Shown: positions 1-64,000 of the stretch, one piece after another
Layout: the number at the start of each line of letters is the position of its first letter
Numbering within the stretch: the first letter of the stretch is position 1
Assembly: GCA_019638845.1 (NCBI GenBank)
Contig: JAHBSZ010000001.1
Coordinates: 248,001 to 312,000 of the forward strand
From: Salinibacterium sp.
Lineage (GTDB): Bacteria > Actinomycetota > Actinomycetes > Actinomycetales > Microbacteriaceae
Length of the DNA stretch: 64,000 nt
Direction of reading: 5' to 3'
Notes under the pieces: generated by a model
The model's input: only the letters and a program-made list of their open reading frames with translations
Database searches by the model: none
Told to the model about the DNA's origin: nothing
Made by a program: the position numbers and the translations under genes

Positions 1-697
1 TGCCCGCGAGCGCACTGAACTGTGGACTCGATCGCAGGTCGGCAACCGAGATCTCGTCTTTGCCCAGCAGAATCGTCACCGGGTCGAAGTTGATGCCGCC
101 GTCGTGGGCGGTCGGATTGAGGTCGACCGAGACGGGGATGGTGAAAAAGAAGAGGTCGAATTCGGTGCCAACTCGGATGAGCTGGTTCTTGAGCTCGATC
201 GACGTCAGATCGATTCCGCTCATGAAGCTCGAGAGTTTCTTGACGTTCTCTTCGGAGACCGTCACTTGGATGTCGAGCGTCTCCAGGGGCACGGAGCTAT
301 CGAGCGGGACCTTCGTCGCCGAGATCACGGCCGTACCTGAGATGTCGCCGAAGGTGATCGGGTCGACGTGCACCGTTACCTCGTCGAGGGCGCCCAGCGC
401 CGCCTGAAGCAGCACCGAGCCCGTGCCCACATCAACCTCGACGTCGGACGCGGGGTCGAGCTTGAGCACCTCGACGATGCGCTCGCGGACGTAGTTCTCG
501 GCATAGGTCTTCGCGTAGCGGTCCGCGACGAAGAACCCGACGACGAGCAGCGCGGCGACCACCACGAGCGCGATGAGCACTCCGATCCAGCGACGGCGTT
601 TCCGGGGAGGAGGCGTGGTGGGAGGGGTCTCGACAGGCTCGATCGACGGCGAGGGCCCGACCGACGGCAGCGGCACAGGCACGATCGGCTCGGCCAT
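1..697 (-). CDS. LmeA/DUF2993-type phospholipid-binding membrane protein (partial, C-terminus outside window)
   Basis: The frame is open from an ATG at 697 to the window edge (232 residues visible), so the C-terminus is missing. It has a Pro-rich cytoplasmic N-terminus, an Arg/Lys cluster at about residues 32-36, one membrane helix at about 38-57, and then a beta-rich extracytoplasmic domain. This layout and composition fit the actinobacterial DUF2993/LmeA family; mycobacterial LmeA binds phosphatidylinositides and supports lipomannan elongation. The start lies 3 bp after the argS stop, so the two are probably co-transcribed. Family assignment is from architecture only; a precise role is not claimed. 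Confidence 0.6.
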   Translation of the reverse strand, partial: MAEPIVPVPLPSVGPSPSIEPVETPPTTPPPRKRRRWIGVLIALVVVAALLVVGFFVADRYAKTYAENYVRERIVEVLKLDPASDVEVDVGTGSVLLQAALGALDEVTVHVDPITFGDISGTAVISATKVPLDSSVPLETLDIQVTVSEENVKKLSSFMSGIDLTSIELKNQLIRVGTEFDLFFFTIPVSVDLNPTAHDGGINFDPVTILLGKDEISVADLRSSPQFSALAG

Positions 698-700
698 GGG

Positions 701-2359
701 CTACATCCTCTCGGGTGCGCTCACTCCCAGAAGTCCGAGGCTGTTGCGGAGCACCTGCCCGACCGCGTTATTGAGCCAAAGGCGCGTGCGGTGCAGGTCT
801 GTGACATCCTCATCGCCCAGCGGGGTGACGCGGCAATTGTCGTACCACCGGTGGTAGGCCCCGGCTAGTTCCTCACTATAGCGAGCAACCCGATGGGGCT
901 CGCGGAGCTCCGCTGCTTGCCGAATCACCCGAGGAAATTCGGCGAGGATGCCCAGCAGGATGCTCTCGCTCTCATGCGACAACAACCCCGCGTCAAACGC
1001 CGAGGTGTCCACCCCGGACGCAGCCGCGTTGCGCGCGACGGAGTTGGTGCGAGCGTGGGCGTACTGCACGTAGAAGACGGGATTGTCGTTGGTGCGTTTG
1101 CCCCACAAGTTGAGGTCGATGTCCACCTGAGAGTCGATCGAGCTGCGTACCAAGGCGTAGCGCCCGGCGTCTACTCCGACCGCCTCGACGAGGTCTTCGA
1201 GGGTTACGACGGTTCCCGCGCGCTTCGACATGCGCACCGGTTCGCCATCTCGAACGAGGTTTACGAGCTGCCCGATGAGAATCTCGAGGTTGACATAGGG
1301 GACGTCACCGAAAGCCTTGGTCATCGCCATGAGCCTGCGCACGTAGCCGTGGTGGTCAGCGCCGAGCATGATGAGGTTGCGCTCGAAGCCACGCTCCCGC
1401 TTGTTCAGGTAGTACGCGAGGTCACCGGAGATGTAGCCAGCCTCGCCGTCCGACTTGATGACGACCCGATCCTTGTCGTCGTCGTAGTCGGTCGAGCGGA
1501 ACCAGGTTGCGCCGTCCGCCTCATAGATCGCGCCGAGATCACGCAGCCGTGTGATGGCCTTCTCGACGGCGCCTGACTCGTGCAGTTCGTTTTCGTGAAA
1601 GTAGACATCGAACCGAACGCCGAACTCGTGGAGTGCGGCCTTGATATCGCCGAACATGAGCTCGACGCCGTTGGCGCGGAACACTTCCTGCTGCTCATCG
1701 CGCGGGATGCGCGAAAGGTTGCCTGGATAGAGGTTGATGACCCGTGCCGCGATATCGGAGATGTACGCGCCACCGTAGCCATCCTCCGGTGCGGGCTCAC
1801 CCAGATAACTCGCGAGCAAGCTGCGCGCGAATCTGTCGATCTGTGCGCCATGGTCATTGAAGTAGTACTCACGCGTGACGATGCCACCCTGCGCTTCGAA
1901 GATGCGCGCGAGGCTGTCACCCACCGCCGCCCACCGAACGCCACCGATGTGGATCGGCCCGGTCGGGTTTGCGGAGACGAACTCGAGGTTAATCGTGACG
2001 CCCGCATAGAGATCGCCGCGACCGTAGGCATCGCCCTGATCCACGATCGTCTTCGCGAGCGCGCCTGAAGCCGCGGCATCGAGGGTGATGTTGATGAACC
2101 CCGGGCCCGCGACATCCACGGATGCCACGCCCTCCAGTTCACGCACACCGGCGGCGACCTCCTCGGCAAGCTCACGAGGGTTCGCCCCGAGCGGTTTGGC
2201 GAGTTTCATGGCGATGTTGGACGCCCAGTCTCCGTGATCGCGATTGCGCGGCCGCTCCAACAGGACATCGGCGACAGTTGGTTCCACAGTGCCCCCGCGC
2301 TGTTGCACGATCCGTGCGACGACGGCGAGCAGAGCGGCGGAAAGGTCGGCTGGATTCAC
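701..2359 (-). CDS. argS: Arginyl-tRNA synthetase
   Basis: Class I aminoacyl-tRNA synthetase charging tRNA-Arg in the cytoplasm; 552 residues, normal family length. The HIGH-type signature reads HIGG after NPTGPI (about residue 135) and the KMSKS-type signature reads RMSKRAG (about 376). The C-terminal 120 residues form the anticodon-binding DALR domain, ending [14 protein letters not shown]. The start is a GTG at 2359; a TAAGCT hexamer lies 8 nt upstream, so the transcript may be nearly leaderless. The DUF2993 gene follows 3 bp downstream. A tRNA-Arg(CCG) gene lies 1.5 kb away on the other strand. Confidence 0.97.
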
Positions 2360-3885: not shown

Positions 3886-3957
3886 GCCCCCATAGCTCAG
3901 GGGATAGAGCACTGCCCTCCGGAGGCAGGGGCGGCAGTTCGAATCTGCCTGGGGGCA
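3886..3957 (+). tRNA. tRNA-Arg (anticodon CCG)
   Basis: A complete cloverleaf can be folded by eye: acceptor GCCCCCA (3886-3892) pairs with TGGGGGC (3950-3956); D-stem GCTC/GAGC; anticodon stem CTGCC/GGCAG around the loop CTCCGGA (3917-3923), giving anticodon CCG at 3919-3921, which reads CGG (Arg); T-stem GGCAG/CTGCC with loop TTCGAAT. The discriminator is A3957 and no CCA is encoded. The gene stands at the left edge of a block of accessory-type genes. Confidence 0.95.
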
Positions 3958-3990
3958 CTTCAAAGAAAGTCTCGCCCGCGCTCTCGAGTG

Positions 3991-5020: not shown

Positions 5021-5971
5021 CTTCCCGTCAACGCGAGCGATCCCCCGACGGTGCCGCTCGGTCGTCCAGAGGCCGAGCAGATCGCGCGCAACCTCAGGGC
5101 CATGGCCGACCCGACCAGGATTCAGATCCTCGACCTCCTGCTCGAGGCATCCGGCGGCCGCCGCCCGGTCACAGAGTTGGCCGACGCCTTGGGGTTGACT
5201 CAGCCCACTGTGTCGCACCACCTGCGCGTCATGGCCGACGAGGGCCTAGTCGATCGCCTTCAGGAAGGGCGTCAGGTCTGGTATTCGATCGCACAATCCC
5301 GGATGACCGAAGTCTTCGATTCCGTACGGGCCGATCCGGTGACAGCCGTCGTCGCGCCGCCTGTGCTCGATCGCATCGCTGCCGACCTCGCGACCCGGTT
5401 CACCGGAACGTTCTCCGCGCAGACCGTCACGGAATACGTGCACGGCAGCTACTCGCTTTTGGCCGATCGTGCCCGCATCACCCGGTACCTGCCGTCCCTC
5501 ACGGCTCGATTCGCCGCGGATCGCCTTCAGGCACTCGCTTTGGCTGACGGCCTCACGACCGACCGGACACCTGAGGTGCTCTTCGTGTGCGTCCACAACG
5601 CGGGCCGGTCGCAACTGGCGTCGGCGATCCTACGTTCGCTCGCTGGCGACCGGGTGCGAGTGCTCACTGCCGGTTCGGAACCCGCGGGTTCGATAAGCCC
5701 GAAGATCATCGCGGCGCTCGACGAGATCGGTATCCCTGTTGGGGGCGAATATCCCAAGCCCCTCACAGACGAAGTCGTCCGTGCCGCCGACTACGTGATC
5801 ACCATGGGCTGCGGCGACGCCTGTCCCATCTATTCCGGCCGCAGGTACCTCGATTGGGACCTTCCCGACCCTGCCGAGCTTTCGATGGAAGCAGTACGGG
5901 CCGTGCGCGACGACATCGACACCCGGGTTCGCGGCCTGCTCGCCGAGATTGACTCCATGAACACTCCATGA
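5018..5971 (+). CDS. ArsR-family repressor fused to LMW-phosphatase-type arsenate reductase
   Basis: A 317-residue fusion. Residues about 15-95 form an ArsR/SmtB winged helix (MADPTRIQILDLLL; recognition helix LTQPTVSHHLRVM). Residues about 100-170 form a helical segment resembling the N-terminal three-helix domain of some actinobacterial ArsC proteins. Residues about 175-317 are an LMW-PTP-fold ArsC with catalytic Cys191 in CVHNAGRSQ and a second pair, Cys265 and Cys269, in MGCGDAC. The likely start is the ATG at 5018, which lies inside its own operator; an upstream extension lacks conserved sequence. It probably senses arsenite or a related thiophilic ion and reduces arsenate to arsenite. 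No Cys metal-binding motif is obvious in the recognition helix (TQPTVSHH), so the sensing site is uncertain. Confidence 0.88.
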   Translation: MLPVNASDPPTVPLGRPEAEQIARNLRAMADPTRIQILDLLLEASGGRRPVTELADALGLTQPTVSHHLRVMADEGLVDRLQEGRQVWYSIAQSRMTEVFDSVRADPVTAVVAPPVLDRIAADLATRFTGTFSAQTVTEYVHGSYSLLADRARITRYLPSLTARFAADRLQALALADGLTTDRTPEVLFVCVHNAGRSQLASAILRSLAGDRVRVLTAGSEPAGSISPKIIAALDEIGIPVGGEYPKPLTDEVVRAADYVITMGCGDACPIYSGRRYLDWDLPDPAELSMEAVRAVRDDIDTRVRGLLAEIDSMNTP

Positions 5972-6433: not shown

Positions 6434-7096
6434 ATGGACCTCACCGAGCGGCGCGGGATGCCCGGGCTCGCCTACCCCGAGGAGTACCTGAAACGACTGG
6501 CTCACGAGCTGAGTGAGAAGTTCGCCGGGATCTTTGGCGCTGAAACCGTCGAACGGTACGTGCTCGAGTCGTACACCGGCCTGCTGCGCACATCAAAGGT
6601 GAAAGCCCATCTCGCCTCGCAAACGGTCCGATTCGCGACCGACCGGCTCACCGCCCTCGCGCAGGCAAAGGGGGCCATCGAGTCCGTGGTGCCCGAGGTG
6701 CTGTTCATCTGCGAGCACAATGCGGGGCGATCGCAGATGGCCGCCGTGCTCACCAATCACCTCGGTGCGGGAAGGGTCCACGTCCGCTCCGCCGGGTCCT
6801 CGCCCACCGACTCGCTCAACCCGGCCGTCATTGCAGTGATGGCCGAACTCGGCCTGGACATGGCCGAGGAGTTTCCCAAGCCACTCACGGACGACGTGGT
6901 TCAGGCCGCCGATGTGGTCGTGACCATGGGCTGCGGCGACGCCTGCGCGATCTATCCCGGCAAGCGCTATCTGGATTGGGAACTCACCGATCCAGCCGGG
7001 CTCCCACTGGACGACGTTCGAATCATCCGCGACGACATCGAGGGCAAAGTGAGAGCGCTGCTGGCCGAGCTACCCGAATCGAGCATCAGTAGGTAG
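6434..7096 (+). CDS. Arsenate reductase with N-terminal three-helix domain
   Basis: A 220-residue protein. The first 80 residues are helical (YPEEYLKRLAHELSEKFAGI and following), matching the middle segment of the ArsR-ArsC fusion upstream. The LMW-PTP-type ArsC domain follows, with Cys93 in ICEHNAGRSQ and Cys167/Cys171 in MGCGDAC. The two-domain form resembles the corynebacterial ArsC1'-type enzyme, described as thioredoxin-coupled with three active Cys. It starts 2 bp after arsC, so the two form one operon. The 3' end overlaps the convergent SulP gene by 27 bp. Three ArsC domains thus sit in tandem within 2.1 kb. Confidence 0.88.
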   Translation: MDLTERRGMPGLAYPEEYLKRLAHELSEKFAGIFGAETVERYVLESYTGLLRTSKVKAHLASQTVRFATDRLTALAQAKGAIESVVPEVLFICEHNAGRSQMAAVLTNHLGAGRVHVRSAGSSPTDSLNPAVIAVMAELGLDMAEEFPKPLTDDVVQAADVVVTMGCGDACAIYPGKRYLDWELTDPAGLPLDDVRIIRDDIEGKVRALLAELPESSISR

Positions 7097-8722
7097 CTCG
7101 CGCGCGACATGGCTTCGGGCGTGCTCGACGGCGGCGGGGAGGTCTTCGAAAAGATGATTCTCGTGCCGGAGGGAGGTAATGACTCCCACCCGTGTCGCAA
7201 CCCTGAGGTGGCTGGGGCGAATGCCTTTGATCAACACCGTGATACCGCGACGCTCGAGCGCATGAGTCATCTCGGTCACAACCCGCGCTCCGGTGGCATC
7301 CAACACCTGCAATTGCGACATGCGAAGGATGACCACCGTGACATTGGCCACGCTGGTGACGCGCTCAAGAACCCGATCCGCAGCACCGAAAAAGAGGGCT
7401 CCGTCGAGGCGGAACAGCGCGATGTGGTCATCCCCTGGTTGGGCCGGCCCCGGTAGCTCTTCCCGATGCACTCCGCCCGACTTTGCCAAGGCACGCAGTG
7501 CAAAGAACGCAGCAACCCCGATCCCGATCCCGACCGCGACGATGAGGTCCACCGAGACGGTCACGATGGCGGTGATCACGAACACGGCGGCGTCGGAGCG
7601 GGACGACCCGAGAACCACGCGCATCGTCGAGAGTGACACCATCCGGACCGCGGTGACCATGAGCACACCCGACAGCGCTGCGAGCGGCACCTGCGAGATC
7701 ACTCCCGTCGCGAGATAGACCACCGCGAGGAGCACGAGCGAGTGGATGATCGCCGCGAGCCTTGTCCTGCCTCCCGACCTGAGGTTGACCGCGGTTCGCG
7801 CGATGGCGCCCGTCGCGGGCATCCCGCCGAAGAGACCGGACGCCACTGACGCCAGCCCCTGGCCGACGAGCTCGCGATCTGCGTCATAGGGACCGGTGTC
7901 GGAGATCGACGCCGCAACACGCGCGGATAGCAAGGACTCGATCGCCGCGAGCGCAGCGACCGTCAATGCGGGACCCACGAGTTGTTGGATCACGGTCATA
8001 TCGATTGTCGGCAACTGCGCGGCGGGAAGGGTCGACGGAAGCGTCCCGATGTCGGTCAGGGGCAGCGCACACAACGCTGCCACGACCGAGACGATGATGA
8101 TCGCGATGATGGAAGCAGGGAGCTGCTTGTGGATGCGTGGAATCCCGATCATGAGAGCGGCCACGACGACCACGACGAGCAGGGGCCACACGACGGTGCC
8201 CCACGCGACCTGGTCGAGCGATTGAACCGCCGCGACGAAAGCATTGCTGCTCGAACCCGGGTGCGTACCGAAGGCAGCCGGCACCTGCTGAAGAAAGATC
8301 AGCACAGCTATTCCGAGGGTGAAGCCTTCGATCACCGGCCACGGGATATACGACACCACGCGGCCCAGTTTCGCCGCGCCGGCCAAGAGAACCACCACAC
8401 CGGCCATGATGCTGACAATCGCCACGGCCCCGACCCCGTGAACGGCCACTATCGGTCCCAGCACCACGACCATCGCACCGGTCGGACCGGACACTTGGAT
8501 GTTCGAGCCGCCGAATACTGCGGCAACGAGCCCTGCGACGATAGCGGTAATGAGCCCGGCCTCGGCTCCCGCACCGGAGCTGACTCCGAACGCCAGCGCC
8601 AGGGGAAGGGCCACGATTCCGACGGTCACTCCCGCCAGTAGATCCCCGCGCCACGATTTCTTGAGCAGTCGATAGTCGGCCCGGCGAGGCAGCAACGATC
8701 GCGCATAACGCAACGCTTTCAC
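7070..8722 (-). CDS. SulP/SLC26-family anion permease with STAS domain
   Basis: A 550-residue inner-membrane transporter. Residues about 25-400 contain the many hydrophobic spans of the SulP core, including the early GIVALPLALAFGVSSGAGAE segment and SGPTGAMVVVLGP. Residues about 415-525 form a cytoplasmic STAS domain with the conserved DATG loop. SulP substrates include sulfate and bicarbonate; the substrate here is not determined. The ATG overlaps the stop of the upstream ArsR-family regulator (ATGA), so the two form one operon. It converges on the arsenate reductases; transport of arsenate-related or sulfur oxyanions is possible but unproven. Confidence 0.9.
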   Translation of the reverse strand: MKALRYARSLLPRRADYRLLKKSWRGDLLAGVTVGIVALPLALAFGVSSGAGAEAGLITAIVAGLVAAVFGGSNIQVSGPTGAMVVVLGPIVAVHGVGAVAIVSIMAGVVVLLAGAAKLGRVVSYIPWPVIEGFTLGIAVLIFLQQVPAAFGTHPGSSSNAFVAAVQSLDQVAWGTVVWPLLVVVVVAALMIGIPRIHKQLPASIIAIIIVSVVAALCALPLTDIGTLPSTLPAAQLPTIDMTVIQQLVGPALTVAALAAIESLLSARVAASISDTGPYDADRELVGQGLASVASGLFGGMPATGAIARTAVNLRSGGRTRLAAIIHSLVLLAVVYLATGVISQVPLAALSGVLMVTAVRMVSLSTMRVVLGSSRSDAAVFVITAIVTVSVDLIVAVGIGIGVAAFFALRALAKSGGVHREELPGPAQPGDDHIALFRLDGALFFGAADRVLERVTSVANVTVVILRMSQLQVLDATGARVVTEMTHALERRGITVLIKGIRPSHLRVATRVGVITSLRHENHLFEDLPAAVEHARSHVARELPTDARFG

Positions 8723-9157: not shown

Positions 9158-10879
9158 ATGGGAGCGGACGAGCACACAGCGGCATGTGTCATCCCGCCCG
9201 CGGACCCGACCCTTGTCGATTCACCACTGCTCACTCGAATTCGCGAGTCAGTGATCGGTGACGATCAGGTGACGCCAGGACCGTTCGGCCCGAGACGAGT
9301 CACCTATGCCGACTACACAGCAAGCGGCCGGTCCCTGACGTTCATCGAGAGTTTCATCCGCGACGAGGTGCTCCCGCGCTACGCGAACACGCACACCGAG
9401 TCGAGCGGCACCGGCCTGCAGACCACTCGGCTCCGCGAGGATGCCCGCGCCACCATCCATCGCTGCGTGCACGGCACCGACGACACCGTCGTGATCTTCA
9501 CCGGAAGCGGTTCGACTGCAGCGATCAACAAGCTCGTCGGGATCATGGGATTGCGCATCCCCGCCGATCTCGACCGCAACTACGGACTCTCGCTGCGGAT
9601 CCCCGAGGCTGAGCGTCCCGTCGTGTTTCTCGGGCCCTACGAACACCACAGCAACGAGCTACCTTGGCGAGAGTCGATCGCTGACGTCATCACGATCCAC
9701 GAGGATGCCGACGGGCATATCGACCTCACCCACCTCGCCGAAGAGCTTATGCGGTATGCGAACCGGCCTCTGAAGATCGGCTCCTTCAGCGCGGCGAGCA
9801 ATGTCACAGGAATCGTCACCGACTGCGAAGCCATCACCCGCGTGCTCCACGAACACGGCGCTCTCGCCTTGTGGGACTTTGGTGCCGCGGCCCCGTACGT
9901 GGACATCGATATGCGACACGGGTACGACGCAGTGTTCGTCTCTCCCCACAAGTTCATCGGTGGCCCGGGCACGCCGGGTCTGCTGATCGTGGACAAGTCA
10001 CTCCTGACAAACTCCGTGCCCGACATGGTGGGCGGCGGCACTGTTGCGTACGTCAACCCGCTTGAGCACCGGTACCTCACTCACCCCGCCCATCGTGAAG
10101 AAGCCGGCACTCCGGCGATCATCGAGTCCATTCGCGCGGGACTTGTGTTTGGGCTCAAAGATGCCGTGGGGGTCGACACGATCCAGGCATTGGAGCACGA
10201 CTTCCTGCGGCGAGCGCTCAGCGCATGGGACGCGCATCCGAACATTCAGATTCTCGGAAACCCGCTCGCTGATCGCCTCTCCATTGTCTCCTTCGTAGTG
10301 AAGCGGCCCGGCGGGCGGTATCTGCACCACAACGTCGTCGTGGCGATTCTCAACGACCTGTTCGGAATCCAATCGAGAGGCGGCTGCTCGTGCGCCGGCC
10401 CGTACGGACATCGCCTGCTCGGCATCGATCTCGACCGGTCGCACGAGTTCGAGCGGGAAATCGCGAGCGGCTGCGAGGGCATCAAACCCGGCTGGGTGCG
10501 GGTGAGTTTCAACTACTTCATCAGCGATGCCGTTTTCCAATACATCGTGAGGGCGGTCACGATGATTGCCGAACACGGCTACAAGCTCGTGCCGCGCTAC
10601 CGGTTCAGTGTGGCGACGGGGCTGTGGCGCCACCACGATGGCCCGGTCGAGCCGCCGTTGCGGCTATCCCAACTCGCATACGACGCCGACGGCCGTCTCA
10701 CCTATCCCCGTCACGACGATACGGCGCCAGAGTCCGCTCTGTCGGACTACCTCGCCCAAGCTGAAGAACTCTTCGCGTCGCTCCCGAAACCCGGCCCTGA
10801 GCATGTTGCCGACCTCGTGACCTCCGACTTCGAACACTTGCGCTGGTTCGATCTGCCCGAGTCGAGCCTCAAGAGCTAG
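9158..10879 (+). CDS. Class V aminotransferase-fold PLP enzyme (cysteine desulfurase-like)
   Basis: A 573-residue PLP enzyme, longer than typical cysteine desulfurases (about 400). Lys265 in SPHKF is the expected Schiff-base lysine; ASNVTGIV and the Asp in WDFGAAAP (about residue 240) fit the cofactor site. A GGCSCAG segment (Cys410 and Cys412) sits where desulfurases carry their mobile-loop Cys, but the CSC arrangement differs. The extra C-terminal 120 residues are uncharacterised. It is divergent from the ArsR-SulP operon, so a sulfur or selenium role is attractive but only inferred. The exact reaction is unknown. Confidence 0.8.
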   Translation: MGADEHTAACVIPPADPTLVDSPLLTRIRESVIGDDQVTPGPFGPRRVTYADYTASGRSLTFIESFIRDEVLPRYANTHTESSGTGLQTTRLREDARATIHRCVHGTDDTVVIFTGSGSTAAINKLVGIMGLRIPADLDRNYGLSLRIPEAERPVVFLGPYEHHSNELPWRESIADVITIHEDADGHIDLTHLAEELMRYANRPLKIGSFSAASNVTGIVTDCEAITRVLHEHGALALWDFGAAAPYVDIDMRHGYDAVFVSPHKFIGGPGTPGLLIVDKSLLTNSVPDMVGGGTVAYVNPLEHRYLTHPAHREEAGTPAIIESIRAGLVFGLKDAVGVDTIQALEHDFLRRALSAWDAHPNIQILGNPLADRLSIVSFVVKRPGGRYLHHNVVVAILNDLFGIQSRGGCSCAGPYGHRLLGIDLDRSHEFEREIASGCEGIKPGWVRVSFNYFISDAVFQYIVRAVTMIAEHGYKLVPRYRFSVATGLWRHHDGPVEPPLRLSQLAYDADGRLTYPRHDDTAPESALSDYLAQAEELFASLPKPGPEHVADLVTSDFEHLRWFDLPESSLKS

Positions 10880-53666: not shown

Positions 53667-54979
53667 CAGATCACCGGCCCGTCATCAACGATGGGCGTGT
53701 AGCGCACTCGATCGATCCGTCGACCGTCGAGACGCTCGATGCGGAACGTTCCCCCATCGACCTCCACGGTGTCGCCGGCGGCGGGGAGTCTGCCCAATTC
53801 ACTCATGAGCCAACCTGCAACCGTTTCGTACGGGCCTTCCTCTGGCACCGACACTCCGGTGCGCTCGAGCAGTTCATCCGGCCGCAAAATTCCTGGGAAC
53901 GTGAACCAAAGCCGGGAGCGCACCACATCGGCCTTGGTGCGGTCGTGTTCATCGGATACCTCGCCCACGAGTTCCTCGACGAGATCTTCGAGGGTTGCGA
54001 CTCCCGCAGTGCCGCCGTACTCGTCAAGCACCACGGCCATCTGATATCCGCGGCCGCGAAGTTCGGCAAGCAAACCGTCGAGCTTCATCGTCTCGGGAAC
54101 TCGCAGCGCGTCCGACTGGAGCGCCGACACCGGCACATCCGCGCGCTTTTCACGCGGAACCGCGACCGCCTGCTTCACATGAACAATGCCGACGACGTCA
54201 TCGATGCTGTCGTCAATCACCGGGAAGCGCGAAAAGCCCGTGCGCCGAGCAAGGTCGATCACGTCCTGGGCGGTATCCGTGCGATCGATGCTCGTCACCC
54301 GCGGTCGCGGCGTCATGACGTCCTGAGCGGTGTGATCGGCGAAGGCTAGGGTGCGCGCGAGGAGGGTCGCTGTGTCGCGATCCAGACTGCCTTCTCGTGC
54401 AGAACGGCGCACGAGCGAGGTGAGTTCCTCGGCGGTGCGAGCACCCGAGAGCTCCTCTTTCGGTTCAATGCCGAACAACCGAAGGATGCCGTTCGCCGTG
54501 TTGTTGAGCACCGTCACCGCGGGGCGGAACACCGCGGTGAACACCACCTGGAACGGGATGACGACCTTGCCAATCGCCCGAGGAAGCGAGAGCGCGAGGT
54601 TCTTGGGAACAAGCTCGCCGATGATCATCGACAGCAGCGTTGCGACGAGAATCGCGACCACGGATGCCACCACGGCGACGAAAGCTTTCGGCAGGAAGGT
54701 CACCAGAACCGGGGTGAGAAGTGCGCTGAAGGCGGGTTCAAGGGTGTACCCGGTGAGCAGCGTGGTGAGCGTGATACCCAACTGCGCGCTCGACAGGTGC
54801 GTAGAGGTGCGCTTGAGCGCAGAGATAACGACCGTGAGACCGCGTTCGCCCCGCTCCTGCCGCACTTCGAGATCGGACCGATCAAGATTGACGAGCGCGA
54901 ATTCCGACGCGACGAAGAATCCCGTGCCTACGGTGAGGAGCAGGCCGACACCGAGCATGATCAGCTCATACATCGGCAC
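53666..54979 (-). CDS. CNNM/CorC family protein with DUF21, CBS and CorC_HlyC domains
   Basis: 437 residues: DUF21 helices (LIMLGVGLLLTVGTGFFVAS), a CBS pair (about 210-330; FSRFPVIDDSIDDVVGIVHV and GYQMAVVLDEYGGTAGVATL) and the C-terminal CorC_HlyC domain (about 350-430). Probable divalent-metal exporter or regulator. The GTG at 54979 gives the listed length; an ATG at 54973 is equally possible. First of the two-gene operon with the shorter paralogue. Confidence 0.89.
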   Translation of the reverse strand: MPMYELIMLGVGLLLTVGTGFFVASEFALVNLDRSDLEVRQERGERGLTVVISALKRTSTHLSSAQLGITLTTLLTGYTLEPAFSALLTPVLVTFLPKAFVAVVASVVAILVATLLSMIIGELVPKNLALSLPRAIGKVVIPFQVVFTAVFRPAVTVLNNTANGILRLFGIEPKEELSGARTAEELTSLVRRSAREGSLDRDTATLLARTLAFADHTAQDVMTPRPRVTSIDRTDTAQDVIDLARRTGFSRFPVIDDSIDDVVGIVHVKQAVAVPREKRADVPVSALQSDALRVPETMKLDGLLAELRGRGYQMAVVLDEYGGTAGVATLEDLVEELVGEVSDEHDRTKADVVRSRLWFTFPGILRPDELLERTGVSVPEEGPYETVAGWLMSELGRLPAAGDTVEVDGGTFRIERLDGRRIDRVRYTPIVDDGPVI

Positions 54980-55026: not shown

Positions 55027-56466
55027 CTACCAAGAGACCGGCAGGGCTTTTCCCTCTTCATATCCGGCCGCAGACTGTACTCCCACGAGGGCGCGCTCAT
55101 GGAAATCGGCAAGCGTAGTTGCGCCCGCATAGCTCAGCGAACTGCGCACGCCAGACGTGATCATGTCGAGCAGATCTTCGAGTGACGGTCGCAGGGGATC
55201 GAGGTAGATTTTGGAGCTCGAAATGCCTTCCGCAAACAGGGTCTTGCGCGCGAGCTCGTAGGCATCGAGCGTGTCGAAACGCTCACGCACCGCCTTCGTC
55301 GACGCCATTCCCCAGCTCTCCTTGTAGGCACGGCCGCTGTCATCGACCGCGAGCATGCCGGGGGCCTCGATGGTCCCCGCAAACCATGAACCGATCATCA
55401 CGGATGCCGCGCCGGCGGCGAGCGCGAGGGCGACATCGCGCGGGTACCGCACTCCCCCATCGGCCCACACGTGGGCGCCCAGTGCCCGGGCCGCAGCTGC
55501 GGTTTCCAGTACCGCGGAAAACTGGGGACGGCCGACCGCCGTCATCATGCGCGTCGTGCACATCGCGCCGGGACCAACCCCGACCTTGATGATGGTGGCG
55601 CCCGCCCCCACAAGGTCGTTGACCGCATGGGCGGTCACAACGTTCCCCGCGACGATGGGTACACCGAGATCGAGGGCCGCCACCGCCGCTATCGCACGCA
55701 CCATGCCGTCCTGATGCCCGTGCGCGGTGTCGATGACGATGACATCGGCGCCGGCCTCGACGAGCGCCTTCGCCTTCGCTGCGGGATCACCGTTGATGCC
55801 GACGGCGGCCGCGACCGAGAGACGGCCGTGTATGTCCAGCGCGGGCGTGTAGAGCGTCGAACGCAAGGCACCCTTGCGACTGAGGGTCCCCACGACCTTG
55901 CCCTCATGGAGAACGGGGGCGAACTGGATATCCGCGGCGACCATGAGGTCGAACGCGGCACGGGGTCCCGTGAGTTCATCGACATCTATCGAAGCAACGG
56001 ATCCACTGAGCAGGTCCCCGAGCCTCGCGCCGGGCAGCGAGGTTGCCAGTCGTTCCGCCGGGATCACCCCCAGGAATGTCCCTCGCTCGTCGTGGAGCAC
56101 GATGCCGTGGCCTTCGACAGCGGGTAGTTGTGTGAGGGCCGCGGCCACAGTCTCCTCGGGACGCAGGTCGAGTGCGGCGTCGAATCCCACCGGCTGCGCC
56201 TTCACCCACCTGATCGCGTCATCCAGAGCCTGCCCGTGCATGTCTTGAGGCAGTACCCCTAACCCGCCTCGCCGCGCGAGGGTCGCGGCGAGGCGCGGAC
56301 CGGTGACTGAGTTCATGTTCGCGGACACGATGGGGATGCTCGCCGACGTCCCATCCCGCGGGGAGAGCGAGACATCCAATCGACTTCCGACCGCTGAACG
56401 CGAGGGCACGAGGAACACATCGGAGTATGTGAGGTCGTGCACAGGAGACGTTTCGTAAAAGCGCAT
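55027..56466 (-). CDS. guaB1: GuaB1-type IMP dehydrogenase-related enzyme (GMP reductase)
   Basis: 479 residues, IMPDH/GMPR barrel with a CBS insertion (about residues 95-200; IVLHDERGTFLGVIP). Catalytic Cys303 is in GPGAMCTTRMMT, and the GVGPGAM loop and GGVRYPRDVALALAAG phosphate site follow. Actinobacterial GuaB1 is now assigned as a GMP reductase (GMP to IMP) in purine recycling. The ATG at 56466 has TAGCGT 7 nt upstream and fits the family start MRFYETSPVHDL. Divergent from kgd. Confidence 0.92.
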   Translation of the reverse strand: MRFYETSPVHDLTYSDVFLVPSRSAVGSRLDVSLSPRDGTSASIPIVSANMNSVTGPRLAATLARRGGLGVLPQDMHGQALDDAIRWVKAQPVGFDAALDLRPEETVAAALTQLPAVEGHGIVLHDERGTFLGVIPAERLATSLPGARLGDLLSGSVASIDVDELTGPRAAFDLMVAADIQFAPVLHEGKVVGTLSRKGALRSTLYTPALDIHGRLSVAAAVGINGDPAAKAKALVEAGADVIVIDTAHGHQDGMVRAIAAVAALDLGVPIVAGNVVTAHAVNDLVGAGATIIKVGVGPGAMCTTRMMTAVGRPQFSAVLETAAAARALGAHVWADGGVRYPRDVALALAAGAASVMIGSWFAGTIEAPGMLAVDDSGRAYKESWGMASTKAVRERFDTLDAYELARKTLFAEGISSSKIYLDPLRPSLEDLLDMITSGVRSSLSYAGATTLADFHERALVGVQSAAGYEEGKALPVSW

Positions 56467-56598: not shown

Positions 56599-59500
56599 GT
56601 GTCAAGCCAAGTGACCGGAGTCACACCCGACGGGGATTCCTCGGGCGAATTCGGAGCCAATGAATGGCTCGTTGACGAGATGAACGAGCTCTACCTCAAG
56701 GACAAGAACCTCGTCGACCCGTCTTGGTGGCCGGTTCTCGAAAGCTACAACCGAACCGAAGACCCGACTCCTACCGGCACGATCACTCTGCCCCCTCCCG
56801 CTGCGCAACCCGAGCCCGTTGCCGAGGCCGCACCTGTCGCCGAGGCCGCACCTGTTGCCGACCCGCCCTCCCCCGCAACCGGTAGCCAGCCGATCGCCCG
56901 CACGACCTCGGTGGAGGCAAAGCCACAGCCCATTCCGGCTGAGGCCCCCGCGACGCTACCCGTTGCCTCAACGGATGCCACCCAGCCCACCGAAGCGCAG
57001 GATCAAGCCGCTGTGCTCAAGGGCGCAGCAAAGAGCCTGGCCGCGAACATGGATGCCTCGCTTACCGTTCCTACGGCCACCAGTGTGCGCACAATGCCGG
57101 CCAAGCTCCTGATCGATAACCGCATCGTGATCAACAATCACCTCAAGCGTGCACGGGGTGGAAAGGTGTCCTTTACGCACCTGATCGCGTGGGCCATGGT
57201 CGAGACTCTCAAAGAGTTCCCGAGCCAAAACGTCTTCTACGACGAGATCGATGGCAAGCCATCCGTCGTCACGCCTGCCCATATCAATCTCGGTATCGCG
57301 ATCGACATTCCGAAGGCTGACGGCACTCGATCGCTCGTCGTGCCCGGAATCAAGCGTTGCGACACCATGGGGTTCGCCGAGTTCCTCGTGGCGTACGAAG
57401 ACGTTGTCGCGCGGGGCCGAGCCAACAAGCTCACTGCGGCCGACTACGCCGGTAACACCATCTCGCTGACCAACCCCGGGGGCATCGGTACCGAGCATTC
57501 GGTACCGCGGCTCATGCGCGGCGCCGGAACCATCATCGGCGCGGGAGCGCTCGAGTACCCGGCAGAGTTCCAGGGTGCGAGCCCGAAGACGCTCGCCGAG
57601 TTCGGCATCGGAAAGACGATCACTCTCACGAGCACTTACGACCACCGCGTCATTCAGGGAGCAGGCTCCGGCGAGTTCCTCAAGAAGATCCACGAGCGCC
57701 TCATCGGCGAGCACCGCTTCTACGAGGACATCTTCTCGGCACTGCGCATTCCGTATGACCCGATTCATTGGGCATCCGATATCTCGGTGGACCTTGCGGA
57801 CAACGTCGACAAGACAGCTCGGGTGCAAGAACTCATCAACTCCTTCCGGGTGCGCGGGCACCTCATGGCAGACACCGATCCGCTCGAGTACCGCCAACGG
57901 TCGCATCCCGACCTCGACATCTCGAGCCACGGCCTCACGTTCTGGGACTTGGACCGCGAGTTCGTCACGGGTGGTTTCGCAGGCAAGCGCACCGCGTTGC
58001 TGCGCGACATCCTCGGCGTCCTGCGCGACTCGTACTGCCGCACGATCGGCATCGAGTACATGCACATCGCCGACCCGGCGCAGCGGCGTTGGATTCAGGA
58101 ACACGTCGAGCAGAAGTACACCAAGCCCGACCATGACATGCAGATGCGCATCCTCGGCAAGCTCAACGAGGCAGAAGCATTCGAGACATTCCTGCAGACC
58201 AAGTATGTGGGCCAGAAGCGGTTCAGCCTCGAGGGCGGCGAGTCGACGATCGCACTGCTCGATGCTGTGATCCAGATGGCCGCCGAGGCGAACCTCGAAG
58301 AGGTCGCCATCGGCATGGCCCATCGCGGTCGCCTCAGCGTGCTGACCAACATCGCCGGCAAGACGTACGGCCAAATCTTCCGCGAGTTCGAAGGAACCCA
58401 AGACCCGAAGACAGTGCAGGGTTCGGGCGACGTGAAGTACCACCTCGGTACCGAGGGCACCTTCACGAGCGCGAACGGGCACAAGATCCCCGTCTACCTC
58501 GCCGCAAACCCCTCACACCTCGAGGCTGTTGATGGCGTTCTCGAGGGAATCGTCCGCGCCAAGCAAGACCGTCGTCCCATCGGTTCGTTCACGGTGCTGC
58601 CGATCATGGTGCACGGCGATGCCGCCATGAGCGGTCAGGGCATCGTGGTCGAGATCCTCCAGATGTCGCAACTTCGGGCCTATCGCACCGGCGGCACCGT
58701 GCACGTCAACATCAACAACCAGGTCGGTTTCACGACCCCGCCGGCCGAGGGTCACACCTCGACCTATTCGACGGATGTCGCCAAGACCATCCAGGCGCCG
58801 ATCTTCCACGTGAACGGCGACGACCCCGAGGCCGTCGTCCGTGTCGCGGAACTCGCCTTCGCGTACCGCCAGGAGTTCCACCGCGATGTGGTCATCGACC
58901 TCGTCTGCTACCGCCGACGCGGCCACAACGAGGGCGATGACCCCTCGATGACGCAGCCGCTCATGTACAACTTGATCGAGGCCAAGCGCTCGGTCCGCAC
59001 CCTCTACACCGAGGCCCTCGTCGGTCGCGGCGATATCACTCAGGAGGAGTACGAGGCCAGCCACCAGGACTTCCAGGATCGCCTCGAGCGCGCATTCGCG
59101 GAGACCCACGCGGCGCAAACCGGTTCGATGCCGATCATTACCGCCGACGCTATCGCCGACCTCGAGAAGCCCGAGTCGCAGAAGGACAACACAGCGGGCG
59201 AGCCCGCGACCACGGGAGTAGACGAGTCGGTCATCCGTGCCGTCGGTGACGCGCACGACAACCCCCCTGCCGGCTTCACCGTGCATCCCAAGCTTCAGCA
59301 GCTCCTCAAGAAGCGAGTCGAAATGAGCCGCAACGGTTCGATCGACTGGGCGATGGGCGAGTTGTTCGCGCTCGGCTCGTTGCTGCTTGAGGGCACGCCC
59401 GTGCGTATGGCGGGTCAAGACACGCGCCGCGGCACGTTCGTTCAGCGTCACGCGGTGCTGCACGACCGTGAGAATGGCCAGGAATGGTTGCCTCTCGCGA

Positions 59501-60366
59501 ACCTGTCTGACAGCCAGGCGCGACTGTGGATCTACGACTCGCTCCTGAGCGAGTACGCGGCAATGGGCTTCGAATACGGCTACTCGGTCGAGCGGGCAGA
59601 TGCACTCGTGTTGTGGGAAGCCCAGTTCGGTGACTTCGCCAATGGCGCGCAGAGTGTCATCGACGAGTTCATTTCGAGCGCGGAACAAAAGTGGGGCCAG
59701 CGCTCAAGCGTCGTGCTCCTGCTCCCGCACGGTTACGAAGGGCAGGGTCCAGACCACTCGTCCGCACGGATCGAGCGCTACCTACAACTGTGCGCCGAGA
59801 ACAACATGACCGTCGCACGGCCGTCGACGCCCGCGTCGTACTTCCACCTGCTGCGCCGTCAGGCCTACATGCGGCCTCGACGCCCCCTCATCGTGTTCAC
59901 TCCCAAGGCGATGCTTCGCCTCCGCGGGGCCACGAGTGAGGTCTCCGATTTCACCAGCGGACGATTCGAGCCGGTGCTCGACGACAAGCGCATCGACGAC
60001 AAGTCGTCGGTCAAGCGCGTCATCCTCACTGCTGGCAAGATCTACTACGACATCATCGCCGAGCTCGACAAGCGTGAGTCGAAAGACATCGCCGTCGTGC
60101 GCATGGAGCAGTTCTACCCGCTGCCTGTCTCGGAAATGAATGCAGCCCTCGGGCAGTACCCGAACGCCGACTTGGTGTGGACGCAAGACGAGCCCGAGAA
60201 CCAGGGCGCGTGGCCCTTCATCTGCCTCGAACTCGCCAAGCACCTCAAGGGGCGCACGATGACCGTTGCCTCGCGTCGTTCGTCGGCATCACCGGCGACC
60301 GGCTCGTCGAAGCGCAGCGCGCAGGAGCAAGCAGACCTGATCGAGAAGGCGCTCAACCTGGGCTAG
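56599..60366 (+). CDS. kgd: Multifunctional 2-oxoglutarate decarboxylase/dehydrogenase (E1o-E2o fusion)
   Basis: 1255 residues, GTG start. The N-terminal 45 residues (NEWLVDEMNELYLKDKNLVD) match the start of actinobacterial Kgd/OdhA. A Pro/Ala-rich linker follows (about 50-135), then the E2o-type acyltransferase core with catalytic His in TYDHRVIQG (about 347), and the thiamine-diphosphate E1o from about 390 (GMAHRGRLS near 572, HGDAAMSGQG near 671). There is no lipoyl domain, as usual for these fusions; lipoyl groups come from the shared pyruvate-complex E2. Central TCA-cycle enzyme; activity is normally controlled by the FHA protein GarA/OdhI. Confidence 0.97.
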   Translation: MSSQVTGVTPDGDSSGEFGANEWLVDEMNELYLKDKNLVDPSWWPVLESYNRTEDPTPTGTITLPPPAAQPEPVAEAAPVAEAAPVADPPSPATGSQPIARTTSVEAKPQPIPAEAPATLPVASTDATQPTEAQDQAAVLKGAAKSLAANMDASLTVPTATSVRTMPAKLLIDNRIVINNHLKRARGGKVSFTHLIAWAMVETLKEFPSQNVFYDEIDGKPSVVTPAHINLGIAIDIPKADGTRSLVVPGIKRCDTMGFAEFLVAYEDVVARGRANKLTAADYAGNTISLTNPGGIGTEHSVPRLMRGAGTIIGAGALEYPAEFQGASPKTLAEFGIGKTITLTSTYDHRVIQGAGSGEFLKKIHERLIGEHRFYEDIFSALRIPYDPIHWASDISVDLADNVDKTARVQELINSFRVRGHLMADTDPLEYRQRSHPDLDISSHGLTFWDLDREFVTGGFAGKRTALLRDILGVLRDSYCRTIGIEYMHIADPAQRRWIQEHVEQKYTKPDHDMQMRILGKLNEAEAFETFLQTKYVGQKRFSLEGGESTIALLDAVIQMAAEANLEEVAIGMAHRGRLSVLTNIAGKTYGQIFREFEGTQDPKTVQGSGDVKYHLGTEGTFTSANGHKIPVYLAANPSHLEAVDGVLEGIVRAKQDRRPIGSFTVLPIMVHGDAAMSGQGIVVEILQMSQLRAYRTGGTVHVNINNQVGFTTPPAEGHTSTYSTDVAKTIQAPIFHVNGDDPEAVVRVAELAFAYRQEFHRDVVIDLVCYRRRGHNEGDDPSMTQPLMYNLIEAKRSVRTLYTEALVGRGDITQEEYEASHQDFQDRLERAFAETHAAQTGSMPIITADAIADLEKPESQKDNTAGEPATTGVDESVIRAVGDAHDNPPAGFTVHPKLQQLLKKRVEMSRNGSIDWAMGELFALGSLLLEGTPVRMAGQDTRRGTFVQRHAVLHDRENGQEWLPLANLSDSQARLWIYDSLLSEYAAMGFEYGYSVERADALVLWEAQFGDFANGAQSVIDEFISSAEQKWGQRSSVVLLLPHGYEGQGPDHSSARIERYLQLCAENNMTVARPSTPASYFHLLRRQAYMRPRRPLIVFTPKAMLRLRGATSEVSDFTSGRFEPVLDDKRIDDKSSVKRVILTAGKIYYDIIAELDKRESKDIAVVRMEQFYPLPVSEMNAALGQYPNADLVWTQDEPENQGAWPFICLELAKHLKGRTMTVASRRSSASPATGSSKRSAQEQADLIEKALNLG

Positions 60367-60404: not shown

Positions 60405-60635
60405 TTATGCGTCAGCCAACCGCGCCCGGATGGCCTCGACGAGATCTTCGGGAGCGGTCTCTCGACACGCCTGACGCACTTTGAGGGTCAGCGCGAGTCC
60501 GACGTTGTGCTCTTCGGTGCAATCCACGCAGTTCGACATGTGCTCGGCGACGTCAGCGGCATCCTGTTTGGCCAGCTCATTGTGAAGGTATTCCTCGAGT
60601 TCGGCCTTGGCCTTGTCGCATCCGCAATCGGTCAT
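60405..60635 (-). CDS. rsrA: Zinc-binding redox anti-sigma factor (RsrA family)
   Basis: 76 residues with the anti-sigma zinc motif HxxxCxxC (His32, Cys36, Cys39) plus an N-terminal Cys pair (Cys4, Cys6). In Streptomyces, oxidation of RsrA releases zinc and frees SigR. The start overlaps the sigR stop (ATGA), so the pair is made together. RsrA completes the SigR disulfide-stress loop with the mycothiol-linked genes in this window. Confidence 0.93.
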
Positions 60636-61246: not shown

Positions 61247-61318
61247 CAGCGCCAATTCTAGATCGCCGGATGCCACACCCAGGGGCCGCGCCTCAAGAAC
61301 CATCGTCATGGTGAGGTG

Positions 61319-61379: not shown

Positions 61380-62735
61380 ATGGCGATTTCCAAGGCGGCC
61401 CAGCCCCAATTCAACCCGTACGGTGACGACGACCCGATCGCGCCCATCGACGACGGGCCGTGGGTCGCGCCCGTCGCGAGCGGTCCCCTCAATGCCGTAC
61501 TGAGTCTTCCCGGCTCGAAGAGCCTCACGAATCGCGAACTCGTACTCGCGGCGCTCGCCAACGGACCGTCCCTGCTGCGGGCACCGCTGCACTCGCGAGA
61601 CACTGCCCTCATGGTCGAGGCGCTGCGCACCCTCGGCACCAGCATCGTGGAGGTTCCGGGCGACGGCGCCTTCGGAGCGGATCTGCTCATTACCCCCGGC
61701 GAACTCGGCGGTGGATCTATCGACTGTGGCCTCGCGGGAACCGTCATGCGGTTCCTGCCGCCCGTGGCGGCTCTCGCGCTCGGACCCGTCGCATTCGACG
61801 GCGACGAAGCCGCGCGCCGACGACCCATGCGCACGACTGTCGATGCCCTCCGGGCGCTCGGGATCGACGTGAGCGATGACGGTCGAGGCGCGCTGCCCTT
61901 CAGCCTGTATGGCACCGGCGCAGTCGCGGGCGGAGCACTCGACATCGACGCGAGTGCATCGAGCCAGTTTGTCTCCGGCCTGTTGCTCGCGGCTCCCCGG
62001 TTCGACAACGGACTGCGCCTTCGGCACACCGGCACCACACTTCCGAGCCTGCCCCACATCGACATGACCATTGCGTGCCTCGCGGCGCGCGGCGTTCACG
62101 TCGAAAACCCAGAACCCGGCCTGTGGATTGTCGAACCCGGTGAGATCCAGGCCCTCGATGTCGACATCGAGCCCGACCTCTCCAACGCAGGACCATTCCT
62201 CGCCGCTGCGCTTGTCGCGGGCGGGAGTGTGACCGTGCAGGGCTGGCCGACACACACCACTCAGGTTGGCGCGCGCATGGCCGACATCCTGCGCGACATG
62301 GGCGGGAGGGTGACCCACGGCCCGACGTCGCTGACCGTGGAGGGCGGCGACGGCATCCGAGGCATTGCCCTCGACGAAGCGAGCGAACTTGCACCCACCG
62401 TCGCCGCAGTAGCCGCGCTTGCCGATTCGGAGACCGTGCTCACGGGAATCGCTCACCTGCGCGGTCACGAAACGGACAGACTCGCCGCACTCGCGGCCGA
62501 GATCAACGCGCTCGGGGGGGATGTCACCGAGACCGTTGACGGACTCATCATCCGGCCAGCGACGCTCACGGGCGGGCCGTGGCACGCTTACGAAGATCAC
62601 CGGATGGCGACCGCGGGCGCGATCATCGGTCTTGCCATCGCGGGGGTGTCCGTCGACGACATCGGATCGACCTCGAAGACTCTCCCTCAGTTTCCCGAGC
62701 TTTGGGCTGCACTGGTGCACGGGCACCTACCGTGA
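61380..62735 (+). CDS. aroA: EPSP synthase (3-phosphoshikimate 1-carboxyvinyltransferase)
   Basis: 451 residues. [20 protein letters not shown] is the conserved substrate loop; [20 protein letters not shown] and [18 protein letters not shown] contribute phosphate and catalytic residues; [15 protein letters not shown] is the C-terminal signature. It makes EPSP from shikimate 3-phosphate and PEP in chorismate biosynthesis. Whether it is class I or II by glyphosate response cannot be told from sequence alone. First gene of an aroA-rsgA-hisN run next to sigR, an order common in actinobacteria. Confidence 0.96.
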
Positions 62736-63778
62736 GTTGGCTCACCGACGACGGCGATGACGAGGGCGACTACGCCGAGTACGACGAGTCCGCCGCGAAG
62801 GTGCGCCCGAACCCCAAGGCCAACAAGCCACGCAGCAAGAACCGTCCTGAGCACGCCGATGCCATCTCGGGCCGAGTGTTCAGCGTCGATCGTGGCCGTT
62901 ACGGCGTGTGGGTCGACGAGAACACACCAGACGAACGCCAGCTCATCGCCACCAAAGCTCGGGAACTCAGGACTCAGGAGGGCCGCATTTCGGTAGTAGC
63001 GGGCGACCGCGTCGACCTCGTGGGCGACACGACGGGCGATGAAGGTTCTCTCGCACGCATCGTCCGGGTGCAACCCCGAACCACGCTGCTTCGCCGCAGT
63101 GCGGATGACACGGATGCGGTCGAGCGCATCATCGTCGCGAACGCCGACCAGATGCTCATCGTCGTCGCTTCGGCCAACCCCGAGCCGCGACCGCGCCTCG
63201 TCGATCGCTATCTGGTTGCCGCCTTCGACGCCGGAATCGCCCCCATCCTCGTGATCACCAAGACCGACCTCGCCGACCCGGCGGAGTTCCTCGCGAACTT
63301 CGCCGGGCTCGACATCCGCGTGATCCAAAGCCGTTCCGACGAATTCCCCCTCGACGAGTTGCACGCGATTCTCGAGGGGCACACCACGGTCGCGGTCGGC
63401 CATTCCGGTGTGGGTAAGTCAACGCTCGTGAACGCCCTCGTGCCCGACGCGAACCGCGCTGTCGGTCGCGTGAACGACGTCACCGGACGGGGCCGGCACA
63501 CGTCGTCATCCACCATCTCGTACCGTGTGGGTACCGGCTGGATTGTCGATACCCCCGGCGTGCGCTCTTTCGGCCTCGGCCACGTCGACCCGTCGAACAT
63601 CCTCAAGTCGTTCACCGATCTTGCCGACCTGGCCCGGGACTGCCCCCGCGGGTGCACCCACTTGCCGGATGCTCCTGACTGCGCGATCGTCGAGGGTGTC
63701 GCGGCGGGGCGGCTCGGCGAGCTCGGTGCCGAGCGTCTCGAATCCTTCCAGCGACTGATCACTACGCTGGGATCGTGA
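62732..63778 (+). CDS. rsgA: Ribosome small subunit-dependent GTPase A
   Basis: 348 residues from a GTG overlapping the aroA stop (GTGA). An acidic N-terminus, then an OB fold, then a circularly permuted GTPase: G4 VITKTDLAD precedes G1 GHSGVGKST, followed by [12 protein letters not shown]. The zinc site Cys-x3-Cys-x-His-x6-Cys is in [14 protein letters not shown]. Helps 30S subunit maturation. The stop overlaps hisN by GTGA. Confidence 0.95.
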
Positions 63779-64000
63779 CCGACTTTTCTCTCGCCGACGA
63801 TCTCGCCCTCGCCCTGGCCCTCGCGGCCGATGCAGACCACATTTCGCTTGACAGGTTCCGAGCCGTCGATCTCGTCGTCACCACGAAGCCCGATCGCACC
63901 CCGGTAACGGATGCCGACCAGGCGGTCGAACGCAGCATCAGGTCAGGTATCGAAGCTGCACGGCCGACGGACTCGATCCTCGGCGAAGAATATGGCACTC
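63775..64000 (+). CDS. hisN: Histidinol-phosphatase / inositol monophosphatase family (partial)
   Basis: The GTG at 63775 overlaps the rsgA stop; 75 residues are visible before the window ends. [20 protein letters not shown] then [10 protein letters not shown] and SILGEEYG are the N-terminal metal and lithium-sensitive motifs (KPDxTPVTxAD, GEE) of the HisN/IMPase family. In actinobacteria the gene in this position is usually a histidinol-phosphate phosphatase, the basis of the symbol; an inositol monophosphatase role is the alternative. Confidence 0.85.

Follow-up and report, generated by a model that had tools for sequence, protein, structure and literature searches.

The seven-base word GGATGCC (GGCATCC when it lies on the other strand) is over-represented throughout the genome of Salinibacterium sp. 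(GCA_019638845.1; 2,961,827 bp in 13 contigs), and we found it to be a family-wide, codon-independent iterated word that has dialects and obeys a strand-specific spacing rule, in that copies on the same strand keep clear of one another over roughly 0.4-0.8 kb and copies on opposite strands do not. We propose, with a probability of roughly 45%, that GGATGCC is a functional genome-wide word that is read directionally, likeliest by the helicase-nuclease AdnAB as a Chi-like switch. The stretch of DNA analysed first, here called the window (64,000 bp; positions 248001-312000 of contig 1), holds 34 copies on the forward strand and 31 on the reverse. The original prediction, made from the letters of the window alone, had put these at about 33 and 31 and had given an expectation of about 14 from base composition, and both estimates were close: we computed 14.1 for both strands together, with 14.3, 18.8, 29.9 and 56.8 from Markov models of order 2, 3, 4 and 5, respectively. 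Against the order-5 model GGATGCC is unremarkable as a 7-mer in the window, because that model conditions on 6-mers inflated by the word itself; the leading 6-mer under the same model is GCATCC, which is part of the word (123 vs. 76.1 expected). Across the whole genome there are 1,288 and 1,337 copies per strand (2,625), compared with 158 and 137 (295) of the reversed word. By the order-3 model GGATGCC ranks first among 7-mers in seven of nine samples from the genus, the window included, and second and fourth in the other two (G016 and G019, respectively); it is also the top-ranked 7-mer in the window after within-gene codon shuffling. The over-representation is therefore real and genome-wide, and all 26 of the other congeners that were searched are enriched as well.

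Codon choice does not account for the excess. Genes were called by a simple codon-model script, unchecked against annotation (66 genes and 94.8% coding in the window), and within them we counted 64 copies in the window vs. 20.7 after synonymous shuffling (standard deviation 3.8, maximum 28 in 100 shuffles), 535 vs. 131.8 in 400 kb of the relative G021, and 357 vs. 125.2 in seven other congeners. A stricter null, in which the codon is drawn given the amino acid and the neighboring bases, raised these expectations only to 26.4 (maximum 38 in 50), 184.6 and 173.9. The claim that the word was unlike a simple codon effect thus stands, and the codon-aware 7-mer count proposed along with it gives an observed/expected ratio well above 1, about 3- to 4-fold. 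The word occurs as often in the sense as in the antisense of genes in G021 (266 vs. 269), and there its fold excess peaks where it requires rare codons (NNG-GAT-GCC, 235 vs. 34; NNG-GCA-TCC, 121 vs. 9.6). These codon pairs had been singled out at the outset, and the large excess there is borne out, although the GGC-ATC-C frame, which accounts for 16 of the 64 genic copies in the window, had been overlooked. Over nine samples, aspartate followed by GCC is encoded by GAT in 399 of 491 cases where a G precedes and in 122 of 494 where a C precedes. Where the remaining six bases matched the word, 12 of 13 frame-by-position tests at synonymous sites favored the motif base (odds ratios 2.3-12.3), and every one of the seven positions was favored in at least one test; the sole contrary test concerned Cys TGC/TGT at position 6 (n = 15), for which the other test gave 12.3. 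Favored bases included A over C, G and T, and G over C, and since both transitions and transversions into the word are favored, no single mutation type explains GGATGCC. The candidate considered, C-to-T in GGACGCC, was rejected: position 4 is strong (odds ratios 10.8 and 12.0), yet other positions are favored too. The word is also enriched in intergenic stretches (15-600 bp), where four sets held 66, 34, 9 and 22 copies vs. 10.6, 6.5, 1.7 and 6.5 by base composition; the window has one intergenic copy in 3.6 kb.

The edges of the word are softer at its 3′ end. Over all groups, neighbors mismatched at position 7 are raised over codon shuffling (T, i.e., GGATGCT, 2.08-fold; A, 1.47-fold; G, 1.36-fold), those at position 6 less so (T, i.e., GGATGTC, 1.48-fold; A, 1.34-fold; G, 0.85-fold), and mismatches inside GGATG reach at most 1.28-fold. 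Weak preferences continue past the word, where position 8 tends to be C (137 vs. 82) and position 13 favors C (395 vs. 283) and disfavors G (124 vs. 220).

The spacing of the copies was assessed in 20 genome groups (2,315 genic copies) against a null in which each protein-permitted site is filled at the genome's rate for its codon class, with 150 simulations for the word and 60 for control words. Same-strand pairs were scarce at 8-30 bp (12 observed vs. 37.8 expected), 30-60 bp (26 vs. 49.7), 60-100 bp (44 vs. 71.4), 100-200 bp (130 vs. 172.6), 200-400 bp (286 vs. 343.7) and 400-800 bp (570 vs. 642.7), with z from -4.8 to -2.3 across these bins, and were no longer depleted at 800-1600 bp (1,249 vs. 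1,213.5). Opposite-strand pairs were not depleted in any bin (z -0.9 to +1.9; for example, 47 vs. 45.0 at 8-30 bp and 1,310 vs. 1,210.8 at 800-1600 bp). The controls CGATGCC, GGACGCC, GGTCGCC and GGATCGC gave no significant depletion (lowest same-strand z -1.5), the two rarest falling slightly short at 8-30 bp (1 vs. 2.4, z -1.0; 1 vs. 3.5, z -1.5). Sense-sense and antisense-antisense pairs inside genes are equally depleted, as are same-strand pairs of differing codon class (65 vs. 112.4 below 200 bp), and at borders between genes that run in the same direction the depletion is again seen (219 vs. 263 below 800 bp). A model-free comparison, which takes in intergenic copies, gave direct and inverted pairs in proportions of 41:122 (8-60 bp), 204:280 (60-200 bp), 342:419 (200-400 bp), 712:759 (400-800 bp), 1509:1564 (800-1600 bp) and 2968:2889 (1600-3200 bp), so that the ratio climbs with distance through 0.34, 0.73, 0.82, 0.94 and 0.96 to 1.03. 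In seven control words the first-bin ratio was 0.6 to 2.2, the lowest values resting on few pairs (3:5 and 6:9), and for the overlapping word GATGCCG it was 98:107. The even spacing that had been remarked on is only weakly true: pooled over genomes, the copies are spaced a little more regularly than chance would give, owing to the same-strand pairs, and the window by itself shows no significant regularity.

Could the close inverted pairs be terminator hairpins? Pairs 7-60 bp apart are mostly inverted (103 vs. 33), yet 94 of the 103 are genic, and the order GGATGCC...GGCATCC is no commoner than the reverse arrangement (47 vs. 47), so we rejected this reading; the surplus of inverted pairs at short range arises because the direct pairs are missing.

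How widely is the word used? Comparison with related genomes, which had been suggested as a check, showed a density that runs from background to about 1.9 per kb in 249 genomes of the family, which we take to be Microbacteriaceae. At the lower end G095 has 229 copies vs. 245 of the reversed word, and at the upper end G101 (genus g74) has 7,364 in 3.9 Mb vs. 293. Among named genomes we compared 80 loci obtained by a PEPCK search, for which the best matches were Cryobacterium, Ruicaihuangia, Agromyces and Microbacterium, all members of the Microbacteriaceae. We examined the 25 highest and the 10 lowest rows, in which the densest was Microbacterium sp. CSI-V (9.9 times base composition), followed by a Microbacteriaceae metagenome-assembled genome, Agromyces, Ruicaihuangia, M. 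galbinum, Leifsonia sp. Root4 and Cryobacterium sp. Y50 (3.9 times); Streptomyces stood at 2.5 times or less, save for one short locus with 3 copies (3.2 times), and M. sufflavum, of the same family, was low at 1.7 times.

Some members of the family that are low in GGATGCC iterate another word instead. We scanned 16 such genomes (40-100 kb each, with codon-shuffle tests) and found CGGATCC or GCAGGATC in four: CGGATCC in G192 (127 vs. 28.4 by codon shuffling) and G081 (87 vs. 13.2), and GCAGGATC in G127 (44 vs. 7.5) and G091 (25 vs. 3.3). In G138 (genus g41, loci L228-L229) CGCATCC, i.e., GGATGCG, is slightly in excess (30 vs. 11.6) and may be a further variant of the word. In the remaining 11 we saw, as a matter of judgement, no comparably outstanding word; some top words had z of about 9 (for instance AGGAGGCG in G147, 76 vs. 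27.2), on par with words of a codon-pair kind. Whole genomes agree, with 2,682-3,319 copies of CGGATCC per strand in all five sampled g54 genomes and 3,129 and 3,174 in G192; this word was judged by codon-shuffle tests, its reversed control containing CTAG and being a poor yardstick. G180, from a genus with small genomes, is the one member sampled there that is rich in CGGATCC, with 1,427 and 1,444 copies in 1.9 Mb (about 1.5 per kb) and two weak T2SSF matches; its congeners G031, G128 and G221 have 167-243 copies per strand and 0-1 such matches. G159 (genus g74) iterates two words, GGATGCC (3,026 and 3,020) and CGGATCC (2,061 and 2,050), and three sampled g74 congeners have 410-573 CGGATCC per strand. 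By the order-3 model several further words were over-represented in other samples, namely the HIP1 octamer GCGATCGC in G003 (loci L090-L092; 58 vs. 21.5) and G024 (L096-L098; 44 vs. 14.9), GAAGTCC in G003 (19 vs. 3.4) and G007 (L093-L095; 17 vs. 4.5), and TACCTCA in G007 (12 vs. 2.4) and G024 (12 vs. 2.3).

Redundancy confined to copies on the same strand would be expected if a tracking enzyme reads the word in a single direction, and the repair or recombination role first suggested as one option for the word gains from it. Which enzyme might this be? RecBCD was rejected as the reader, as RecC was found in 0 of 58 family genomes, compared with 3 of 7 from other families. At least two PDDEXK_1 matches were present in 47 of 49 family genomes; of the 13 regions fetched, 12 encode them side by side as two proteins of about 1,000-1,170 amino acids, mostly near a UvrD-type helicase (the thirteenth region, from G095, was not scorable). 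We take this pair to be AdnAB from its PDDEXK_1 domains, size and adjacency; an AdnAB-like pair looks near-universal in the family and is the only putative complex of the RecBCD/AddAB class that we recognized there, AddAB not having been searched with models of its own. AdnAB is the break-processing enzyme of mycobacteria and streptomycetes. From the same-strand redundancy, the failure to find RecC and the presence of the AdnAB-like pair we propose a Chi-like signal for AdnAB. A DNA-tracking machine, likeliest the AdnAB helicase-nuclease, would read GGATGCC on one strand and in one direction, and the word would make it change over from degrading DNA to promoting recombination. Synonymous codons and intergenic DNA would be drawn toward GGATGCC by selection or by gene conversion begun at the word; a nearby second copy on the same strand would add little, an opposite-strand copy would serve a machine arriving from the other side, and other lineages would use other words. 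The directional reading, AdnAB as the reader and the switching function are each what we infer from these patterns. A third large PDDEXK_1 protein of 1,106 amino acids (L181:2953-6270, reverse strand), which resembles a TM0106-type RecB-like nuclease, occurs in the window's genome and some relatives and, as far as the PDDEXK_1 model shows, does not track the word. A plasmid search with an AdnAB-type protein returned no Microbacteriaceae plasmid.

The closest known systems include the Chi sites of RecBCD and AddAB, which are 5-8 bases long and vary in word and length. GGATGCC is likewise asymmetric, GC-rich and over-represented genome-wide, past what composition and codon use provide, and it too differs between lineages and may be read in one orientation. 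It departs from Chi in its candidate enzyme, AdnAB, and in its density of about 0.9-1.9 per kb in the enriched genomes studied vs. about 0.2 per kb for Chi in E. coli (one every 5 kb, PMC8022716). The avoidance among same-strand copies suits a directional signal like Chi better than an orientation-free uptake sequence.

Several observations weigh against this proposal. E. coli Chi is polarized along replichores, according to PMC8022716, and in two single-contig chromosomes that we sampled evenly, with every origin placement tried, GGATGCC was not (G242, maximum 0.530, n = 946, P 0.39; G021, maximum 0.542, n = 589, P 0.22). The controls of the pair test were other 7-mers, with no known Chi or uptake word among them. 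Neighboring genes that run in opposite directions showed no same-strand depletion across their border (148 vs. 144 below 800 bp, and 23 vs. 28 below 400 bp, on small numbers). The genomes with CGGATCC have equal numbers of direct and inverted pairs, which is uninformative given the palindromic core of that word, and the 91 copies of GCAGGATC were too few for the pair test. The AdnAB-like pair is present in G147, G062 and G089, where no word was detectable. In genus g98, moreover, when the AdnAB-like proteins of G143 and G266 are taken as the reference, those of the CGGATCC genome G192 lie nearer to them than those of the GGATGCC genome G232 do, so AdnAB divergence gives no support to AdnAB as the determinant of word specificity. 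We go no higher in our confidence because the polarity is missing, word-free genomes carry the pair and a rival based on DNA uptake still stands; and although GGATGCC seems Chi-like in its apparent working, we do not file it as a Chi site because that polarity is not found and recognition is putative. There is about an even chance that we have here a family-wide, strand-autonomous directional word of Actinobacteria with switchable dialects (GGATGCC, CGGATCC and GCAGGATC), which would be either the first Chi-like signal of the AdnAB class, in which case action at two-ended breaks would leave the word unpolarized, or a new directional chromosome signal that would be neither Chi, DNA uptake sequence, FtsK orienting sequence (KOPS) nor HIP.

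Might another directional machine, such as a translocase, a nuclease or a replication-restart factor, read the word without AdnAB being involved? The strand-specific redundancy would fit such a machine too, and the word-free genomes with an AdnAB-like pair and the AdnAB divergence out of step with the word in g98 speak for it; we found no candidate gene, however, and regard it as unlikely. KOPS resemble GGATGCC in being short and asymmetric and in the directionality proposed for it, but KOPS-like roles require arm polarity, and because no orientation toward the terminus along the replichores was seen in G242 or G021 we rejected KOPS.

To the same degree unlikely is that GGATGCC is a DNA uptake sequence, preferred by a Tad (Flp) competence pilus or by ComEA and raised by transformation and recombination, in which case the alternative words would be uptake dialects. 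The word has a density near 1 per kb and equal strands without arm polarity, in keeping with the account of uptake sequences in PMC1939737, which are not orientation-biased; like them it has copies both within and between genes. The lineage words GGATGCC, CGGATCC and GCAGGATC share GGAT in a dialect-like manner, as uptake dialects of Neisseriaceae share a core (PMC3630211). ComEC was found in 49 of 49 family genomes, and in the window's genome comEA-comEC and a tad locus lie about 15-21 kb beyond the window's right end; Micrococcus luteus transforms with Tad pili and needs two tad clusters (PMC4322843). Using one genome per genus (76 of the 249) and without correction for phylogeny, the median density of GGATGCC was 0.76 per kb in 49 genera with an inferred second Tad-like set vs. 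0.34 per kb in 17 without (P 0.003), 10 more being ambiguous and T2SSF detection marginal in some; TIGR03819 counts could not separate genomes with one tad locus from those with two, as only eight candidates were scored per genome. The competence machinery (ComEC, ComEA and Tad proteins) is thus present but not discriminating, ComEC occurring also in genomes where no word was seen. Genera g61, g8, g4 and g40 are enriched (0.69-0.97 per kb) although neither a second Tad set nor PilC was detected in them, again with marginal detection in some, and G143, among the densest at 1.65 per kb, has no match to the pilin-type proteins of G192 in 12 kb around tadABC. A site working in either orientation should moreover make inverted neighbors redundant too, and they are not depleted. 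The density is no higher between genes than within them, unlike the description in PMC1939737. With seven bases the word is also short, and it differs in this from uptake sequences, which are 9-12 bases long. Beside tadABC of G143, on the side where G192, G232 and G266 carry tad pilin genes, there is a gene (L241:157-3486) that resembles a phage DNA primase/helicase or AAA ATPase (28-35% identity) and is possibly a mobile insertion.

Less probable still is that GGATGCC is the target of an orphan methylase, or a HIP-like word kept abundant and replaced when the methylase changes. GGATG and GGATC are type IIS specificities, and the words share GGAT. The likeness to cyanobacterial HIP1, which had been raised at the start, and to other iterated palindromes of cyanobacteria holds for the extreme iteration within one family and for the replacement in some members (HIP1 is replaced by other methylase-linked iterated words, PMC4390886) and fails in that GGATGCC, unlike HIP1, is not palindromic, differing from GGCATCC; a methylase link was not sought. 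The graded rise of the near-cognates GGATGCT and GGATGTC at the 3′ end does not favor a methylase, which also does not predict redundancy confined to one strand. The word is not avoided in two related Microbacterium phages, whatever word their host may use: the genes within the first 30 kb of each contain 9 copies vs. 5.6 and 8 vs. 6.0, which is no clear enrichment either. Last, the idea that GGATGCC owes its abundance to codon usage, to composition or to one mutational bias has almost no probability left, for although codons do contribute to the excess over base composition (shuffle mean 20.7 vs. 14.1) and GGACGCC is depleted in step with GGATGCC (0.44-fold), codon shuffling, the synonymous-site tests with transversions and transitions alike favored, the intergenic enrichment of 3.4- to 6.2-fold over base composition and the relatives with overlapping G+C that lack the word refute it.

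No description of GGATGCC turned up in the open-licence full-text literature, nor did we find there any DNA uptake sequence in Microbacteriaceae or any earlier uptake word in Actinobacteria, all of which is weak evidence of absence; the family genera searched for are not named in PMC5217627. Whether Chi regulates AdnAB was not known in 2016, according to PMC4824097. A dense family-wide candidate word, together with species in which the word has switched naturally, makes this question directly testable; if GGATGCC were an uptake word instead, it would be one for which we found no precedent in Actinobacteria in that literature. The comparison of direct with inverted pairs is in addition a cheap general probe for the directional reading of iterated words.

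Every exact copy in the window is given here. On the forward strand GGATGCC lies at 946-952, 2120-2126, 2859-2865, 6456-6462, 9439-9445, 9703-9709, 10929-10935, 17075-17081, 17192-17198, 20618-20624, 23705-23711, 24605-24611, 25785-25791, 27229-27235, 29693-29699, 31297-31303, 32294-32300, 33141-33147, 33900-33906, 36474-36480, 36562-36568, 38416-38422, 40706-40712, 46880-46886, 48672-48678, 49924-49930, 51232-51238, 54484-54490, 54662-54668, 55402-55408, 56973-56979, 57051-57057, 61268-61274 and 63909-63915. On the reverse strand (GGCATCC as written on the forward strand) it lies at 2379-2385, 5146-5152, 7295-7301, 7818-7824, 11146-11152, 15801-15807, 16692-16698, 19535-19541, 20310-20316, 22429-22435, 23397-23403, 23959-23965, 24814-24820, 25849-25855, 31049-31055, 32005-32011, 35862-35868, 37485-37491, 38540-38546, 39164-39170, 40611-40617, 41951-41957, 47468-47474, 49015-49021, 49129-49135, 51074-51080, 51610-51616, 52971-52977, 57771-57777, 60558-60564 and 62352-62358. 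Eleven positions had been listed in the original prediction, of which one was exact (5146), six were within 3 bp and four were misplaced by 10-32 bp: 17043, 20588, 36544 and 51064 are properly 17075, 20618, 36562 and 51074. The only tRNA gene in the window is a tRNA-Arg (CCG) at 3886-3958. At 56599-60366 a 2-oxoglutarate dehydrogenase E1 is fused to a 2-oxoacid dehydrogenase acyltransferase domain, which is an actinobacterial arrangement.

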